From contig OX359247.1 of the NCBI GenBank assembly GCA_947179485.1, positions 52,983,131 through 53,047,130 of the forward strand: 64,000 nucleotides of DNA, read 5' to 3'. The notes under the pieces are model-generated. The model was not told where the DNA came from, did no database searches, and saw only the letters and a program-made list of their open reading frames with translations. Shown here in pieces: positions 1,631-61,300 of the stretch (positions are counted from its first letter, which is position 1; each line of letters opens with the position of its first letter). The stretch comes from Allacma fusca. Taxonomy: Eukaryota; Arthropoda; Collembola; Symphypleona; Sminthuridae. The position numbers and the translations under genes are program-made.

Positions 1631-3545
1631 TTCCTTTTTAGCGAAATGTATTTTATTTTGCATTTTGACAACGCAGCCCAAGTATTTTCCAATTTGCATA
1701 GTTTTGGAGTAGATTAACATGCAGGGCATATCAAATAGAACTAATTGCTTAAAAGTGTTTGTGCGTGTACTGTATTTTAATTTTGCATGCATGTTCGTAT
1801 CAAGGGATACCATTTTCCTTACTCGCAAGAAAGTCGTATCACTTCCTAATCACCTTGTGTCAGTTCTGGACAACTTGAAGTACTGAAACATTTCATGCAA
1901 TATTGAATGGATATCTACATGATTTTCTGTCAATAGTAACCTAAATATTTTCATATGAATTTATCGGAAACTGGATTCGGTAGTGTGTATTTAAAATTTA
2001 AAAATCAGTGCGGACAAAGCTGATGTTGGGCTACAAAGATGATTAAACATATTACAAGATTAAACTGGAATGAAATAACTATAAGTTATTCGATACCTGG
2101 GTAAACAGAAATTAGGAATTCACGTTGGCATGATTCATGAGATTTCAAATTATGTAACAAACTTTTCTGGGTACTTTTTTGTTACTCTTTTGCAGAAGTG
2201 ATTATGGTGCTTCCAAACGCGCATGCAATGTTTAACTTCTGGTTTTTGGAAATTTGAGTGCAGATTTTATGAACTTATTATCATTGACCTGGGAAAAAGC
2301 GTCTACGGAATAGTAAGTTGTGCAAAGCAGAAAATTCTTTAGAAATAAAAGTAGCTTCAAATTTTTTACTTAAGCTTGGATATCTGAAGATCCGTATTTA
2401 AAAATGCACACTCTAAGAACTCACATGGGACGATATACCAAAATAGGGAGAAAAACATCAAGTTCAGGAGTGAAATCGAGGAAGATCAAAGTAGCCACGC
2501 TACATGTAAAAATACTGAAACACAAATTGTAGCAATTCCCTGGCAATTAGTTCAAGTCATATTTTATTTCAAGTATTTTTTAACTATACAACAAAATATT
2601 GTTATATTGCTATTGAATGTTCTCATATTAAAGTCTACATTTTCGAGCTACAGCATTATATTCCCGGGGGTTAAAACCTGTGATTGAGCTCCTGAAAAGA
2701 TCAATTTTTATTTGTAATGACCTCATGTATCATGGCCATTATTCGAGCTTTTACGGGCCCAGACCTTAATCCTTAGCTTTAAATTGTTAGATGAATATCA
2801 ACAATCGATTAATGTAGAAAACAAATATACGAGAGATTCAGACAGTGAATGTCTGTTTGCAATGAATCCACGTGGATTCGATGTCAGTAGAACGTTCTTT
2901 CATGTCAAATTTGATGCACTAGTCGTAAGAGTAAAAAAAACAAAACATTATTGTGTCTTGTGTCCAGGGCCGCAAAAAATGTTTGCAAATGTATAATGAT
3001 CAAAGTATCAAAAAAGGTTAAATGTCATTGAATAAAGGCGTCCTTGTCTCAAGATACCAACCCCAGTCATGTTAAAATATGACTATAAATTATCCAGCCC
3101 TATAGTTGTAGAGACATCGTCATACATAATGTATGTAAATCCCCTCGACAGAAACCGCACTCCGGATAGCCCATCAATCACAACATCGCATCCTTTAAAC
3201 TGATCAGATTTCTAAAAAGCACGAAATTCCTCGCTCGACATATCAGCAGTCACTTAAATTCCCAGCTCTCTTCATGAGGGAAAAAGTCTCTTCACAGTTT
3301 ATATTTGTCTCCACAAGAACTTGTTTTGACAGTGTGATGGATCCAAAGCCTGTAAATTGTCAAAATGTAATCTGTCAAGACCCCAGAAATAATGACTTTC
3401 CAGAATCGGTGACAAGGAAGTCATCATGTTAAGTCACTGCAAACATGAACCTTGGCCCTAGGAGATTTGTACGGAGCTCTGACAATCAGCATATAGCAAT
3501 TTCTTCGAGGGATAATAAATGTTAACCAAAATAGCAGTTTCTTGA

Positions 3546-3672
3546 GTTGTTTCTTTATTTTAAAGTCAAACTGAGTGTTGTTTCTTTATTTTCCAATCAC
3601 AGTGAGCGTGTTTCTTTATTTTCAAAGCATAGTAAGCGTGTTTCTTTATTTTAAAGTCCCTGTGAGTGTTGT
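3546..3672 (+). repeat. Tandem repeat, ~31 bp unit, four copies plus a partial
   Basis: Copies start at 3546, 3577, 3608 and 3638. All share GTTTCTTTATTTT followed by a variable AAAGTC/CAATCA segment and a CTGTGAGY/AGTGAGC end. A degraded fifth copy (GTTGTTCCTTG) starts near 3669. Unit lengths are 31, 31, 30 and about 31 bp. I see no coding role. Confidence 0.8.
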
Positions 3673-4703
3673 TCCTTGCCACAGGCATCAGTGTGTATAA
3701 AAACTTAAGAAGTCAAAAAAAAAAACCATAGACACAGGCAAAATCGAAGGCATTAGACCAGGTCAATAATATAAAGGTGAAGGGCTTTGACAGTAATGCT
3801 TCTCCTACGATTTAACTACACCCTTCACGCACCAACCGTATAATAAATAACCTCACTCGAGTTTTCCTTGTACGAGCCAGACCGTCCATAGACAACACGC
3901 TAGGAACATACGTACTAAGTGACCATACTAAAACCACCTGTGAGGTGTACATAAGTGGTCGTGATACATACAAGTTGGAACAAACTAAACTTGCACTACA
4001 AGTCAATCGGATTCGGCGAGATGCGTAACTGCTCATAATTAATCCCATAGCTCGGAAAGCTTTCCAATAAAATCATGAGGAAGCTGACAGAAACACAAGT
4101 TTTAAGGAGTTGAAAAAATTACTCATTCCTATGTATTCTATGTATGTACATGTATGATTGTAGGTATTACATCCCCTCGAACTTCCCCAACAACCCCATA
4201 GCATTTTCAATGGATAATGCTTCAAGACTACAAATTATTTTAATTACTTATTCACAAGTCAGCAGCGGAGAGGCAACTCCAACAAACTACGAGATATATA
4301 CTAAAACATCAAACTGGGAAAACTAAAATAACTTGCTTCAAACCTCTATTGTTAATTGTAGCTTGTACTGTAAAAAAATCCTTATTTTGACACGTACTTA
4401 CCATGCCTGATAACAAGTTTAAGATAGGGATTTGAACAGCATACTCCCTCACTCCCCCAAGGAGTTGAGGTTGTTAATTATACCAATTGTCCACAAGTGG
4501 ACACTATGATAATCTTCCCTAATTTCCCCCTGACTTTTCAATCATTTCATTTTCTTCTCAGTAATAATATAGAATCTCAAGGAAAGTTTTTTCCCAGCAA
4601 TAAATAATTGTTTGTGTACGCAGTCCGGTTACTTTGGAAAATATTTTGTGAGCTTGTACAAAAAAGCTTAGTAATCTCTTTGGAGGTTGACTATAGACTT
4701 TGT

Positions 4704-34969: not shown

Positions 34970-35480
34970 TTACTCATCCAACGGAATTCTTTCGAGAAGT
35001 CTTCCTTGCAAGCCACCATCACCCTCCTCGTTCGTCAATATGTCCACGGTTTTTTGAAGGCTAAATATTCGGCAGGTAAACTAGATACAACCCTGTTTAC
35101 AAGTGAAGCATCTGACACCAGATTCTTCATTTCCCCAAGCATTCTGGCTAATGCTTGCACTTCCAGCATTGCTGTTACCGGTGATTGGTCCTTTTGCATT
35201 GGATAGTTCAAAAACGTCGTCATTGTGTGCTGAAGGTTCCGGATTCTGCAGTCCGAGTCGAGTTCCCGTAGCTTATCGAGAATCTCCTTCGACGTAGAAC
35301 TATAGATGTGGTCTTGATAAAAGAACGTGGATTTATTAACCAAGTTCAGAAAGTGTTCGGGAGATACTTCAACAGTGTAACGGTGTAGGATAGAATTGAC
35401 AATAAACGCAAAGAATGCTCGGTCTTGTATAGGTACAAAAGAGAGTAAGAAAGGAGAAGAGAAGCTCCAGTCATTTCACT
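34970..35480 (-). pseudogene. Ty1/copia-type gag fragment
   Basis: The - strand frame is open from about 35480 to a stop at 35035. It reads IQDRAFFAFIVNSILHRY, then HIYSSTSKEILDKLRELDSD, FLNYPMQKDQSPVTAMLEVQ, and MGEMKNLVSDASL ending in VVSSLPAEYLAF. This follows the UBN2 gag layout of copia elements: TSKEIWDKL, a RxxxLxxxF.NYKM block, the ALxxMG...SxxxLVxxxxxSLPxEY block. After KKPWT the frame shifts and continues as ILTNEEGDGGLQGRLLERIP before a TAA at 34972. No protease, integrase or reverse transcriptase follows and no LTR was found, so this is a decayed fragment. Confidence 0.65.
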
Positions 35481-53879: not shown

Positions 53880-56347
53880 TACTACTACAAGGGAAAAAAT
53901 ATTTCCACACAAGTTCAAAGCTTGCTTACTTTGTTTCTGACAATATGGTTCTAGGATAAAAATACAATTTTTGTCTGCATAACTTGGAGGTACGGAGGAT
54001 AGGACGCAGAAGAATAATATACTCAAGGAGAAAGGCCCTGTCTCTGTGTTGGATGGAAGTAACCAACCATGGGGAAATGAAAGCGCCTAGGAAAAGTGTA
54101 ATGAAATCAAAGATATCAGGATTGATTTCGTACTTCGTAGTAATTTCACATTCATCTTGGGAGTAATGCCGCAATGATATGTACGTATGTTTACCATCTC
54201 ATTCCATTCGGATATATATCTACGACATGCACAAAAGGACGAGCCGTATTTGGAACCTACACATACACATACACAGACACTCACACACATACACACACAC
54301 GTAACTTGAAATATTCTTTTGAAATTAAATCTTTAAATGAAACCTCGCCTGGCTTCCTCTGTACATTAAACATTTACAGAGGTTTTCCTCTCTCACGCAC
54401 CCATTCATATATTACTCCTGTTCAAACAATATTCACCATCCCGACACAAACAAACATACAAAAGTAATGCAGTTGGCGGAAATAATGAGTAAAAGTGTTT
54501 CATTTAATTTGTCAAACATGGATTTAATTGCAATATTTCCAAATTTGTCAGTCAACAGCCCGTGATGGTAAACAGGCTCACTTTCCCCAGCCTTTGTTCC
54601 CCTCCGCAAAAATTGACTTGATTGCTTCATCCTCACTTGGAGTCCTCCTGGAGTGGGCTACAAATCGTTACAGGACAATGACTGTATGTATAATTAATAC
54701 TTTAAATATAGGGACTCGGATGTGTGTAAAGAGTATTTAGTGTTTCAGGACAAATACATATTTATACATGAATTTTCTAGGCATATAAGGCCGTATGCAA
54801 TTTCACACCTCAGGAACGTCCAGTCATCGAACACCACCCCATCCCCCTGTGTCTATACTGTAAGTACGCAGACAACAGATCTATGTACATCTGACTCTTG
54901 ATGAAACCGGACGATGACGCAAGACCCAAGCTTCCCTTTGCATCTCAACAGCGATATGCCATTGTGATTGTCAAGTGCCGCAAGCCGCCGCGAGCTTGTC
55001 ATAATTTCCATCGTCACCCTTGGTGGTGCGGTCGTGTGTTCTCGGATGAGGAACAGAAACCTTAAAAAGAGTTGTCCAAAAATATTGACATACGAGCTCG
55101 ACCCTGACTCTTGCTCCCAACTGCTGTCATAGGATCTACATATCTACTTACAGTATGACACTTTCTACTTGACACGTTCCTAGAAACGTACAATTCCCAA
55201 TGAACTACTCAAAAAAATGATTACTACTGCTTTCGTGAGTATGTACATACATAGCTCCATGCCTATTCATGTACCTACCTATGACCTGTATTGGTTCTTG
55301 TGTTATAGGATAAGAGTGGTGCTGGAGATGAAATTAGAATTTGATTGTAATCTAATGGTGGTCCCTTACAGTGTCGTCTTTTGATCAGTAATAAAAAATC
55401 GTCTGTATATTGAATGTATGTATATGTACGTACTAGTATATTATTTTCCACTTAAATGCAAATGTTTGTAGGGAGTGAGCATTACAAGGGCTGTATAGGT
55501 GGTAGTATTTTTGTACAAAAAGTATTGTATATTGCTCGGGATATTTGCTTACCTCACGGAAACGCTTTTGGTTTGGAGAGAGTGAGTAGACAGACTGCCC
55601 TTTTACCCATTCCCATGTTTTGCAAAGCCGGGATAATGTGTATATTTAACTGGCAGTGAGGCGTGAGAGAAGAATTCGGAGCATGTGAGCCATTTCCTTT
55701 ATGCACGTCTGAAGGAGACCAAATAAAAAAAACGGAGGGCTATATCAAACTTGGTTTTTGAATTTGATTCAGCTGCTGGTGTCTGTCCTGTAGTAGTAGT
55801 AGAGTGTAGGAGCTGAGTCCTGGAACTGGAAACTTTCTCATGTGATGATGCATCAGGATGATTATATAGAGGGAGAAATGCAAACTTTCTCTCCTCGCCC
55901 GAGCCGAATCTCTGGAATGTTTTAATATCATGCTCACTCCCAACACTCACAGACCAGTAGACAATACAACAAACAGCTCTATCACTTTTTCCACTCCCAA
56001 AGTGATTTCTATATATGATAATATTACGACTGGGAAAATACAGGCAGAAGAACTCCGGGAAATAGTACATTTACGATTTTCCGTCTCATGGTTGCACATT
56101 TCCATGTTTTCCTAGAGAGACTCGATCCTCGGATCCCAGGCGTACATGTTGGTATGTCCTCTCCCAGGGACAGTTCCACTTTCACAGTACCTTCTCTCCC
56201 TATACAAAAGAGTAGGATTCACTCCTGTGAGACTATTGTCAAGTGTGAGGAACCCACTATCAAAGTGCACACTACCAGCAGGAGAGACTATCCAGCACAC
56301 ACCTACTCCTTATGATTATATGGATACATAATTATGTTTGTATATAT
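51938..56347. other. Intergenic, no gene supported
   Basis: The frames at 52861-53145 (+, 94 codons), 54174-54467 (+) and 55699-56070 (-, 123 codons) have no recognisable domain or splice context. A (GA)n microsatellite lies at 53831-53875. Confidence 0.5.
53831..53875. repeat. (GA)n microsatellite
   Basis: About 22 GA units with one interruption (GACA). Confidence 0.9.
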
Positions 56348-56510
56348 CGTCGGTGAAGAGGCAAAATGATCTACGTGCATGATCGATTAGAATCAAAATG
56401 ATCTACATGCAGTTTCACTAAAGGCAAAATGAACTACTTGCATTGGATTTTAAAAGCAAAATGATCTAGATGCAGTTTCTCTTAAAAGCAAAATGATCTA
56501 GATGAAAATT
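56348..56510 (+). repeat. Left terminal inverted repeat with five phased motifs
   Basis: It pairs with 60290-60452 in inverted orientation. The five AAAATGA-containing motifs alternate with variable AT-rich spacers; the second motif is preceded by GAAT instead of GGC at both ends, so that difference predates the present copy. Confidence 0.88.
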
Positions 56511-57145
56511 ATAATAAAAACAATATATATAAACACATTATAATGTCAGTATATGAATATGCGAGGAATTAAAAATCTTGTATATACATAAGCATTGAAT
56601 ATGGCCATGGTATGACTACATACGTAAGTTACATTCTGCGTTTAAGTGGTATTATAAAAACGAAATAAATATTAGGAGGAAGTAAAACGCAAAATTGAAC
56701 TTTTTATGAAAAGGAATGTGATAATGATTTTTGGTAAGAAATTTAATTACATATTTATTACCTGACACATTAATAGTACTTGTGTAAGGACACTACATAC
56801 TATAATTTAATAAAAATGTTGCAATCAGTTTTTAAGAACTAGCGGAGTAACTTCCGTTTTTATAATGAAAGTACATGGAGTGTAGTTATAATCCTTTTAT
56901 GTCTAATGTTAAAAAGTAAAATTATTTGAAAAAAACCAGAAAAAATTACTTAGATTGTATTTGTGATCTGAAATTTCTATCATATATTATCTTGACCTAA
57001 ATGGTGTAAAATCAAAATGGTAGCAAAAATTTAATTCGATCTGTAATACAACTATACAACTGATTTTTTAAAGATTACTATAAATATAGCATACAACTCC
57101 GAATCTAAATCATGTAATTCACATTAGAACAATTATAACTAATAA

Positions 57146-59823
57146 TCACTTAAATGGTAAAGAATGGTAAAACAGCCGACAATCTTCCGGAATGAATTTC
57201 GCTAAATCCTGCAGATCTTTCCATTTGTTTCCAGGAAGGGGTATTTGTGTTTCATAAAGCCGAGAATATTCAAATAACGAATCCATCAATTTTGCTTTTC
57301 GGGGTAACTCGGTCCACTTATCCGAATAATCGAGTTTATAAAATATTTTCCCGTTGGGACGATATTGGAGTGACTTGACATCAATAACTTGTGGGTCGCC
57401 TGCCTTATTTCCAGGTCGGATGGAGTCATATCTCCAGAAGGACTTATCACCAAAATTCTTGAAAACGTTCACGTCAAGAAACTTTGAGCAATATGGTCCC
57501 GGATTTTTACGAGTCTCGGCAGTCACAGTCGAGTATTCGCTTGGTAAAAACATGTCCCGATGTTTTATCTTTTCCTCAATACGACTATGAACTGAATCGC
57601 ATTCCATGTATGTATGACCCTTTTCTAGGTAGCTCTGAGTAATAATTTTCTTGTTTTTTACAGAAATATTCAGAAGCGCGTTTGAAAGAATCGAATTTTT
57701 GTTTTGGTATGCACATCCGTCACTAAAAATAACGATGGGCAATCTGTCATTTAAACAGTTTTCATAAATGTAATCAACCAAACAGGATGTAATTGTTGAC
57801 GCATTGATTTCACCGTTGCACTCATGCCACCTGTAGCAGCAGCAATGTTTACTTCCAATATCAAAGACGCTGTAATTTTACAGATTTAATTTCGACTTAA
57901 AATATGCTGCTTGAACTTTCAGTCTTGGAGCTTGTTGAAGTCCTTGCACATCCACAGTTAACGCGTGTAGTTTCCCCCGTATTGCCAGTCTTTTGCACGT
58001 AGTCTTTTGTGCAAGTGATTTTATTTTATTAGAAATGTGGCAGTTAAATACCGATTGTTCAGTCGAATTGTTAGCAAACGAAATACAGATGTTGCACTGG
58101 TCCTTCTTGGGTTGATAAATGGCTAGATTTTGGATATCAAACTCGTCATTGAAAGTCCACCTGGACGCTTTCAAAAATGCCTTACCATCACAATATCGAC
58201 TGTAAATTTCAAACAAATGCTGTTTGGAATTTACGCTTGTTTCCAAATAGTTCTTAGTTGACAAGCTTTGGCAGTAATGTGAAGGTAATTTTGGAAGCTC
58301 TCCAAAAAATGACTTCACAGATTCTCGAGCCTGCCATAAGTTGGTATTTGTAGCAATGGTCATACCATGGATGTTCCTTCTCCATCGAAACACAGTTGCA
58401 CTAGACAGACTGAATGTAGAGCAAAATAGTATCTTGCAAACTCGAATCCTTTTAGAGTCTATGGAAAGATAGTACTTAAATGCGTTACAAATTCTCGACA
58501 ACGTTTCGGGAGATGTTTGTCTCGATGGTTCAACAATCTGTGTAATTAAAAAAATGTAGAAATCAGATTTTGATTTTATTTAAAATTTATTTAACGGGTG
58601 TCTTCTAATTACTAAAATTTGAGTTTTGAAATGGAAAATGGAACAACTGAAGTGTAGTTACATTTTTTCACAGATGCTAAGAGATAATTTCTGAAGGAAT
58701 TCAAACGTAATAAAAGAAAAACCAACTTAAAAACTACTCGAAAAACATGGCTACTTAACGAAACCTGAGTTCTGAAAAAATCAGAATTGCTCAGTCAGCA
58801 TAAATGCAATGTTAAATGATACAGTGTAAATACAAAAACGAATATTTCTAATAACCTTATTTTGAATCTATACCTCAACTAGAGATGTGACGTAAATCTT
58901 TCGTTCCTCCAGCACATTTGCTTCCAAAAATTAGTAAATAATGTTATACGTTGGTCTTCGGTAACTTCCGTGCACCTATATCCTTCAATTCCATCTTTTT
59001 TCGCATGCCCTGGACATCTTTCCCCGATCTGTCTTGCATTACGTGGCACATTCTGCAAGAATTGCACTTTTTCGTGGCCATTTGCTTCAACTTTTTGGGA
59101 TTTTACACCTAAGTAGTTTCCTCCGAGTTCTCGATTTGCTTTATTTTCAATTCTCTTCCATTTACTCGGGATCGGTCTCTTTCGTCTGGTTCGCTTTCTG
59201 GTTTGATTTTCCTGAAACCAGATTCAATGAACTTCAGTAATTTTGATTTTTCTCTTGGTAATACAACAACCCTTTAATGAATTATCATTGCGGTGTTATG
59301 TACAACCTCGTGATGAATCATATCCTAAAAAGATACACTTGCAAGTAAATAAAATGTATCTTAAACATTATCGTTTAACTGGGCTGTTTCGAATAATAAT
59401 TACCTTATGATCTTCGTCGTCGGATAAAGTTGGTGAACTGTCCATTTGCTCTAGCTGGCTGATGTCAATTGTAGAAAACTGCTCATTGAACCGTTGGTTG
59501 GCTACAGTAGAAAATACTAATTAAAGTTACATAATAAGTAAATTATTACCAATTTTTGATTTATTTAATTTACAAAATTCAGTTGAAAACGTGGTGGAGA
59601 GTGGAGTGAAACCATTGATCACAATTCTCAATTCGACTTATATATTTTAGTTGCTTAAATTATGACAGAGTATTTTTTAATATGGCTTTAACGTTTAATG
59701 TAAAACTGAACTACATTATATTCAAAGGTTCGAATAAAAATGCATAATAAATTAATTACTTTTAATAATTTAAAACTGTGATACAAATTACTCACCTCTC
59801 GGGGATTTCCTCAATGTTTCCAT
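57146..59823 (-). pseudogene. Spliced DDE-like transposase gene, two disabling lesions
   Basis: There are four exons on the - strand: 59823-59796 (METLRKSPR), 59501-59404 (FSTIDISQLEQMDSSPTLSD), 59211-58874 and 58537-57146, all with GT/AG borders and matching phases. A basic stretch (RKRTRRKRPIPSKWKRI) is followed by CPGHAKKDGIEGYRC (possible zinc ligands) and FTNFWKQM. A helix-turn-helix-like LSSATVFRWRRNIHG comes next, then KKDQCNIC, the first acidic site ALTVDVQGLQQAP, IVIFSDGCAYQNKN with the likely second aspartate, and KGHTYMECDSVHSRIEEK with candidate third acidic residues. This order matches a widespread animal transposase-like family usually annotated as uncharacterised. Lesions: one base is missing near 58905-58913 (frame changes between MCW and ERKIYVTSLVE), and TAA at 57880-57878 sits where the frame otherwise continues to NYSVFDIG. 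About 618 codons if unbroken. The C-terminal end is intact (PEDCRLFYHSLPFK). Confidence 0.85.
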
Positions 59824-60289
59824 TTCTTTTTGTCAGTAACATTGTAGATAAATACGTTGTAAATTATGATTTAAATTTGATAATGAGTCCCATTGTTCTG
59901 ATAGTTGTGATGATCGCCAAATATGATTTTAAGAAACTCCAGGTGGAGAATCATTTAAAGGAAAATCAATTCAATGAACACAGTAACACATGACCACAAC
60001 GTGTAAACTCTGATTTTGAATTGTCTTGCTGCTCACGATTGTAAAATAATTTAATATTGCAGTTTTCGTAGCTAAAAATGAATTAGATGCAATAAGTCAA
60101 GTCAACTATAGATGGCGGAATGATACTTAGTAATTGCAAACACTTTAGACAACATTAACCCACAACCCTTGGTGAATTACAGTTACAGCCCTTCTAATAA
60201 TTAACAATAATAATAATTAATAATAATCACAGCCCTTATAAGCTACGTGTATTTCTGGCAGAAGATATTTTTCTAACGCAAATATTTAG

Positions 60290-60452
60290 GACAGCACTTA
60301 GATCATTTTGCTTTTATGGAAATCTGTATGTAGGTCATTTTGCTTTTAAAGAGGCTTGTACCTAGTTCATTTTGCCTTTAGGGAAAAAGTTATGTAGATC
60401 ATTTTGATTCTAATCGATTATGTACGTAGATCATTTTGCCTCTTCACCGACG
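60290..60452 (-). repeat. Right terminal inverted repeat with five phased motifs
   Basis: Inverted partner of 56348-56510. Its five TCATTTTG cores are exactly 32 bp apart, against 31-32 bp at the left. Inner copies have diverged more than the outer two. Confidence 0.88.
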
Positions 60453-61300
60453 ATATATAAGACTTATATGTATATATGTAGATATTGAACCACACTGGAA
60501 GTCCTGGACGTATGAATACCATGTCTTTACATATTTATTTGGAGCTGTTGGGTCCGAGAGGAGAAAAAGAATCAGAGGCAATGCTCCTACTACAGTACTA
60601 CAGCAACGAAGGAGAGGAATTCAATCGAAACATTCTCTCGTGCATAAATAAATGACACACGCTCTCACAAATAAATACTCACACCCATTTCCCAATATAC
60701 AGCTCGAATCGGAAAGACAACCCCGTTGAGCCCACATTAAATCCCTGTAGTTTCCTTTGAGACAGTGACCCTTATAAACCATGCCTATGGACAACTTAAC
60801 TATGGTCCAGATCACCAATGACCGTCTAGGATTCTTGTCCATATATGTAATGTATAATTAATTACTCTAAGGCTGAGATCATATCCCGTGGTTTTTACAT
60901 TGATTCCGGGCTAAATATAACTTTCATACGTATTTTAAACACGTTGTTATTGAACGTTGTAGTTGTAGGGGATAGTTACTAGTAAATTAAGGTTGAAAAT
61001 CCTCATTGGAATTGCTACTCTGGGAGGCCATTGTTTTCAGGACAAAATCTAATTTCGCCACTCATCCTGCTGTTTTATGAAGCCTGGCAGAGCTTGATCA
61101 CTGAAATAGTTTATGCATACAAGCACTTGAGTTGTGGTTCTTTTGACGCGATCATATATGACGCGATCATGGGGATAAGCATTTCGAGAGTAATGTATAG
61201 CCAGGAGGGATTATTGTGTACCTACTTGTGATGCTGGCTTATTGTGAAACTTGTCAAGGTAAAAGTTTGAGAGTGATAATGAATGTATACAAGAGATGTA

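Follow-up and report, generated by a model that had tools for sequence, protein, structure and literature searches.

Why should a transposon carry five evenly spaced copies of one short motif at each of its ends? The question is raised by a DNA transposon in a stretch of 64,000 nucleotides from the collembolan Allacma fusca (contig OX359247.1); the whole of this stretch is called the window below. The element occupies positions 56348-60452 (4105 bp), is bounded by CGTCGGTGAA and TTCACCGACG, and is flanked by ATAT on either side. Each end consists of a unique 13-bp terminus, CGTCGGTGAAGAG, followed inward by five motifs. We establish here the anatomy of the element, its 4-bp target-site duplication, its past mobility, and the conservation of motif spacing as the motif sequence itself turns over. 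In our judgment the best explanation of the sequences, with a probability of about 0.7, is that several transposase molecules would load at set spacing on the ends of what is now a decayed DUF7869 transposon. The motifs would then be transposase sites, and their loading would be cooperative.

Anatomy of the element and its copies

The left motifs start at 56361, 56393, 56424, 56456 and 56488 (+ strand), in steps of 32, 31, 32 and 32 bp. The right motifs, read inward from 60452, start at 60439, 60407, 60375, 60343 and 60311 (- strand), in four steps of exactly 32 bp. An original prediction made from the window had described five motifs per end in steps of 31-32 bp, with 32 at all four steps of the right end, and this is correct to the base. 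The features are as follows.

56344..56347, no strand: target-site duplication ATAT, left copy (parsed flanks; empty site of another copy)
56348..60452, no strand: whole element, 4105 bp (edges shared with 37 other parsed copies save for point changes)
56348..56360, + strand: unique terminal 13 bp, left
56361..56373, + strand: left motif 1 (motif search)
56393..56405, + strand: left motif 2 (motif search)
56424..56436, + strand: left motif 3, after the 31-bp step (motif search)
56456..56468, + strand: left motif 4 (motif search)
56488..56500, + strand: left motif 5 (motif search)
57146..58537, - strand: main coding segment of the presumed transposase gene, carrying DUF7869 (profile match; stop in frame at 57878-57880)
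58879..59223, - strand: upstream coding piece of the same gene, within an open frame (compared by eye with relative L051)
60299..60311, - strand: right motif 5 (motif search)
60331..60343, - strand: right motif 4 (motif search)
60363..60375, - strand: right motif 3 (motif search)
60395..60407, - strand: right motif 2 (motif search)
60427..60439, - strand: right motif 1 (motif search)
60440..60452, - strand: unique terminal 13 bp, right
60453..60456, no strand: target-site duplication ATAT, right copy (parsed flanks; empty site of another copy)

The pattern GCAAAATGATCTA, with at most two mismatches, matches 11 times in the window, and ten of these matches lie inside the two ends; 100 shuffles of the window gave a mean of 3.64 matches and a maximum of 7. 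Tandem Repeats Finder independently found a period of 32 at both ends. The two ends are complementary at 97% over 68 bp (7 flank bases included) and at 81% over the next 88 bp. In an alignment of 66 distinct 32-bp units, 17 positions carry at least 1.4 bits: positions 1-8 (GCAAAATG), 12-13 (TA), 16, 18-19, and 28-29 with 31-32, both within the TAAAA that precedes the next motif. The loosest bases are mainly 14-15 and 20-27. The motif had been quoted as a repeat of 12-13 bp; the conserved part is longer, at these 17 positions of the 32-bp unit. Likewise, five motifs per end is true of the window's family only, and other ends carry from 3 to 12.

A search of the genome (392.7 Mb in 91 contigs) with the left end of the window's element raised 1641 first-look candidates, of which 40 were scored as matches. 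Besides the window, 39 loci were fetched, and 38 elements were parsed, the window's included. L047 yielded two elements, and L033, L034 and L035, where a single terminus was seen, were left out of the parsing. Two of the parsed elements are full length (4105 and 4138 bp), two measure 1524 and 2581 bp, and the remaining 34 are gene-less copies of 656-857 bp.

ATAT is present on both flanks in 35 of the 38 elements. On the outward strand, the base just beyond ATAT is a purine in 65 of 76 flanks, which makes the wider target palindromic, YATATR. Three spanning alignments were counted as empty sites. The flanks of L045, joined with one ATAT, give a gap-free match of 292 bp to L034 at 94.9%, while those of L030 match L046 and L032 with a gap-free junction and gaps elsewhere. 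These alignments show that insertion adds the element plus 4 bp. Alignments at 66-77% were left out of the count (L014/L029, L021/L020, L026 with L054 and L036, and a second match of L045); among these, the L014 and L026 alignments show a small gap close to the junction, and uncounted alignments of L017 match element ends. As ATAT is self-complementary, a duplication of TA with longer ends would look identical. This doubt is removed by the relative L070, which is flanked by ACAG on both sides, fixing the duplication at 4 bp and the ends of the element at 5'-CGT.

Some insertions lie against one another. Two related elements abut in L017 with a single ATAT between them. The right flank of L013 and the left flank of L067 place elements of different families at the same ATAT of a repeated sequence, with 115 bp at 98% identity on one side and no match seen on the other. 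Adjoining copies of the family, positions 20-240 of L016 and 3740-3815 of L017 resemble very small related elements with GGTCTA-type ends.

Spacing of the motifs within and between families

Left-end steps of 32, 31, 32, 32 occur in 37 of the 38 parsed copies, and right-end steps of 32 throughout in 32 of 38. The copies were chosen by left-end similarity, which biases left-end spacing toward agreement; the right ends played no part in the choice. The six deviant right ends comprise one that begins with 33, two that contain a 34, one that contains a 31, one with just three steps, and the broken end of L041. In L036, a deleted member of the family, both ends have the left-type steps 32, 31, 32, 32.

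Differences per site from the window's ends are fewer in the motif than in the spacer (0.018 vs 0.051 and 0.030 vs 0.098). The innermost motif (unit 5) is about as conserved as the outermost (unit 1), and unit 4 is the loosest. The ends of the family show 3 indels to 70 substitutions. Inner sequence shows about 4 to 95 outside low-complexity stretches (summed from the table) and 29 to 151 overall.

The original prediction had proposed that copies be collected and their ends aligned to compare motif phase with spacer sequence. Within the family the copies proved too young for this comparison, whereas between families it is informative and the spacing is kept. In a sister family, pieced together from two overlapping regions of a single contig (L074 and L048), the transposase core is 74% identical to that of the window. 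The N-terminal side has four steps of 32 and the opposite side 32, 31, 32, 32, yet the spacers show 16 differences from the window's in 75 sites and 20 in 76 (21-26%), as against 1 of 32 and 2 of 32 sites in the motifs. The 31-bp step falls at the same place in nine ends. Among 9 + 9 canonical ends, changes per site come to 0.09 and 0.19 in the 8-bp motif and to 0.69 and 0.42 in the spacers, with a largest spacer difference of 32% between any two; these ends were chosen for their canonical steps, so that the comparison measures substitutions and not indels.

Steps were also counted over the ends of the clan (118 steps, weak inner matches included). A small indel between motifs was seen once, of 3 bp in the damaged L056, and whole units were gained or lost in L053, L054, L055, L065 and L066. 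Given about 107 changes outside the motifs, and indel to substitution ratios of about 0.04 to 0.19 inside deleted copies, roughly 4 to 20 indels would be expected where one was seen.

The best evidence comes from two remoter clans, which carry other motifs. Clan 2 (L049, L070 and L071; core 43-49% identical) has termini of CGTTGGCTAAATTAC or near it and the motif GTACCAT, allowing one mismatch. On the C-terminal side this motif lies at +20, +52 and +85 in all three ends (steps 32, 33), and on the N-terminal side at +20, +52 and +91 in both ends (steps 32, 39). Clan 3 (L075 with L081, and L076; 34-51% identity over pieces) has termini of CGTCGGCTAAACTT or near it and the motif CCGGCCATAA, at +19, +51 and +84 at two ends and +19, +51 and +90 at two others. 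The middle motif of three of these ends was missed by the first pattern and then confirmed with at most one mismatch; the third motif allows two. One 32, 33 end adjoins a coding piece and is certainly on the C-terminal side, and the 32, 39 ends are on the N-terminal side. In L075 two units 32 bp apart have the motif in common and mostly different spacers, and in L076 ten sites succeed one another at exactly 32 bp, with an eleventh 33 bp further on. An outer pair of ends in clan 3 may be a nested element. The first step is exactly 32 in all ten ends examined in clans 2 and 3 (five of five in each), and the claim that spacing holds while sequence diverges thus extends to clans with different motifs.

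In a lag test of the first 118-120 bp of 12 ends from the three clans, 32 was the best or equal best lag in ten. End by end, 0, 0, 4, 2, 3, 28, 40, 8, 12, 6, 64 and 0 of 2000 shuffles attained the longest exact self-match seen at lag 32; the two ends of one element, like the members of a clan, are related, so the 12 ends are not independent trials. Genome-wide, on both strands, GCAAAATG pairs separated by 9-39 bases number 2862, as against 27 for the reversed pattern. Among the matches listed, which are 100 pairs lying within the first 14.7 Mb of a single contig, step 32 accounts for 81, or for 34 of 43 by locus; a 20-bp satellite is among the nine loci that lack this step.

B-DNA has 10.5 bp per turn. 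Relative to three turns, steps of 31, 32 and 33 deviate by -17, +17 and +51 degrees, and a step of 39 (3.7 turns) misses by about 100 degrees. In the ends that were examined, three turns separate the two outermost sites. The general rule is a fixed, end-specific geometry rather than a same-face phase.

Families with 26% identity (L072 and L077-L080) were also searched for element ends, and none were found. L077 and L078 have 4.5 kb in common without a difference, and L079 and L080 have 5.5 kb at 98%; other repeats are present. The clan 2 locus L049 (C12:17709400-17714500) lies amid long TTAGG-like, 52-bp and 13-bp repeats, as is possible near an insect telomere.

The DUF7869 gene

Between the two ends of the window's element lies a gene on the minus strand whose read-through protein (P0001) scores 36.2 bits with the DUF7869 profile (PF25273), above the cut-off of 26, and thus belongs to the family; the downstream piece by itself scores 30.9 bits. 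The main coding part is taken to start at 58537, at a splice acceptor placed by eye. This copy is decayed, with a stop in frame at 57878-57880 and, by eye, a change of frame in the upstream piece, which diverges from the relative L051 close to its 3' end. A DUF7869-like core is found between two array ends in the window's element and in L009, L048, L070 and L071, and an alignment retains the acidic residues D196, D273, E312 and D314 of P0001. From position and sequence, the DUF7869 protein is probably both the catalytic and the binding protein of the transposon. A domain of unknown function is here given a definite context, in the gene of a mobile element whose ends are known and whose target duplication is 4 bp.

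We found no mention of DUF7869, alone or together with transposons, in the open-licence literature. Among viral contigs a degenerate pattern gave no relatives, and none was confirmed, as three pattern-matching stretches failed in tblastn. Within the upstream coding piece, positions 58879-59067 (- strand) give a weak match to NinD (E 2e-4, 21.8 bits, cut-off 35) that is probably due to chance. At L050 (C10:51583800-51589100) a frame at 1813-4551 and a second copy at C10:51592531 form neighbouring long open frames of 912 and 869 aa; their DUF7869-like core has 43% identity with that of the window. The first has an apparent duplication of a 'RVCKPFFLSTF..GKQMV..W' module and a proline-rich tail. 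Inverted ends were looked for at L050 and none were found, and it is possibly a host gene derived from a transposase.

Explanations for the arrays and related systems

If several transposase subunits load on each end, the unique 13-bp terminus would be the place of cutting and joining, and the array inward of it would provide the predicted binding sites. These would lie at 0, 32, 63, 95 and 127 on the C-terminal side and at 0, 32, 64, 96 and 128 on the N-terminal side in the window, and at 0, 32, 65 and 0, 32, 71 in the remoter clans. Subunits would load side by side, the two ends would pair, and the element would leave and join a 4-bp staggered target, with ATAT preferred. Sites of fixed geometry for several subunits fit the retention of arrays in gene-less copies, the conservation of the inner motifs, and the spacing kept through changes of motif.

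Regular spacing could also be a by-product of tandem duplication, through slippage or unequal exchange, with no constraint on the spacing itself. Arrays do grow by whole units, reaching 12 motifs in L055, 8 in L013 and 11 in L076, with like units repeated in L066 and L053; L053 has amplified the 31-bp unit. In young copies, moreover, indels are no rarer in the ends than in inner sequence outside low-complexity stretches. However, clans with different motif sequences all start with a step of 32, the units of L075 share the motif but little of the spacer, and the 31-bp step, like the 32/33 and 32/39 patterns, returns at the same type of end in different families. We therefore regard duplication without constraint as unlikely. 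Duplication and constraint are compatible, as tandem duplication makes new sites and selection need only keep the spacing that it provides. That the arrays serve control instead of transposition, through a repressor, promoter factor or anti-silencing protein, is more doubtful still. The right array does lie upstream of the gene, and plant transposons offer a precedent in tandem sites that serve anti-silencing proteins. But 34 short gene-less copies retain arrays at both ends, apart from the one broken end of L041, and conservation is at least as good in the array on the far side of the gene. Selection for curved DNA from phased A-tracts, instead of for protein spacing, is very improbable. Runs of A occur at fixed places in every unit, but in a crude AA-wedge model the ends are straighter than most shuffles (220 and 266 of 300 were at least as bent).

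Several observations weigh against the loading of transposase at set spacing. The second step is 39 in four of the ten ends of clans 2 and 3, and 39 is the best lag in two N-terminal ends of clan 2 among the 12 ends in the lag test; a strict same-face rule for all sites, as originally proposed, fails for this reason. Copies with variable spacing, which had been named in advance as counterevidence, do occur. The motif of the window's family is found at 38-bp steps, four in a row, in L057 (C1:14060850-14061450), a related, damaged element without a recognisable terminus; motif pairs in L059 and L062 stand at 29 and 35; and other copies have steps of 29, 33, 34 and 35. The first step of 32 is nevertheless constant in the remoter ends. 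Within the window's family, whose copies are young and whose ends show indels about as seldom as inner sequence outside low-complexity stretches, constraint and recent descent are indistinguishable and the spacing is weak evidence. The scarcity of indels makes a spacing constraint within clan 1 likely, but by itself is only suggestive. As for the protein, the PF25273 profile matches only three of five aligned members (E up to 1). A search of solved structures by sequence gave none at E up to 1 for one protein piece, and a search with the alignment gave only two matches at chance level (E 1.2). With no solved relative found, the transposase assignment rests on the position of the gene and its conserved acidic residues.

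We suggest tentatively, at somewhat below even odds, that end geometry is more conserved than the sequence read by the enzyme. The motif differs among the three clans while the outer 32-bp interval is exact, and the identity of an end may be written in its spacing (32, 33 vs 32, 39 in two clans and 32, 31 vs 32, 32 in the third). These ends offer a natural experiment in which motif sequence and motif spacing evolve separately.

Array-type transposon ends are already known from Mu, Tn7, IS21 and Muta1. Elements of the piggyBac/Kolobok type target TTAA, as opposed to the ATAT or ACAG found here, and were rejected. hAT elements have 8-bp duplications and an hAT transposase, and differ in this from the window's element. 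They resemble it in the short repeated subterminal motifs, bound by transposase, and the unlike left and right ends described for Herves, and the same account calls multiple transposase binding sites beside terminal inverted repeats (TIRs) frequent (PMC3143072). IS3EU, described as having TA..TA termini and usually a 6-bp duplication (PMC10045372), was rejected for an element with CG..CG termini and 4 bp.

The nearest in look is Muta1 of Aedes aegypti, a Mutator-like element (MULE) whose 145-bp TIR is described as a short unique terminus plus nine 12-bp repeats with 3-4 bp spacers (PMC5225508). There too a unique terminus adjoins a subterminal array and non-autonomous derivatives are many, with over 300 putative ones reported for Muta1 and other Aedes aegypti MULEs along with excision in a yeast assay (PMC5225508). 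However, Muta1 has a MULE transposase, a period of about 15-16 bp and a target duplication of 8-9 bp (PMC5225508), and the 4-bp duplication of the window's element sets it outside the MULEs. Sola2 elements are described with 4-bp AT-rich duplications (AWWT, ATAT included) and TIRs of 12-21 bp (PMC3627910). The window's family resembles them in its 4-bp AT-rich duplication, with ATAT on both flanks in most copies and a gap-free empty site, whereas the ACAG of L070 is 4 bp but not AT-rich. It differs in that Sola2 has short TIRs, and no arrays are mentioned in the relevant passages of that account (PMC3627910); nor did we find a report of Sola2 with tandem binding sites in the open-licence literature. 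Compared by description, the window's element fits Sola2 by its duplication alone, and we do not file it there.

The fixed-geometry assembly of subunits proposed here draws on an analogy with IS21, whose ends have several direct repeats bound by the helix-turn-helix domains of different IstA subunits (PMC10122671). Two repeats are required for integration, repeat spacing is proposed to shape the path of the DNA, assembly is cooperative, and the ends are compared with those of Mu and Tn7 (PMC10122671). IS21 differs in being bacterial, with 5-bp duplications and repeats 23 bp apart (PMC10122671).

Elsewhere in the window, an open frame at 35035-35475 (- strand) reads, judged by eye, like a fragment of a copia-type gag.

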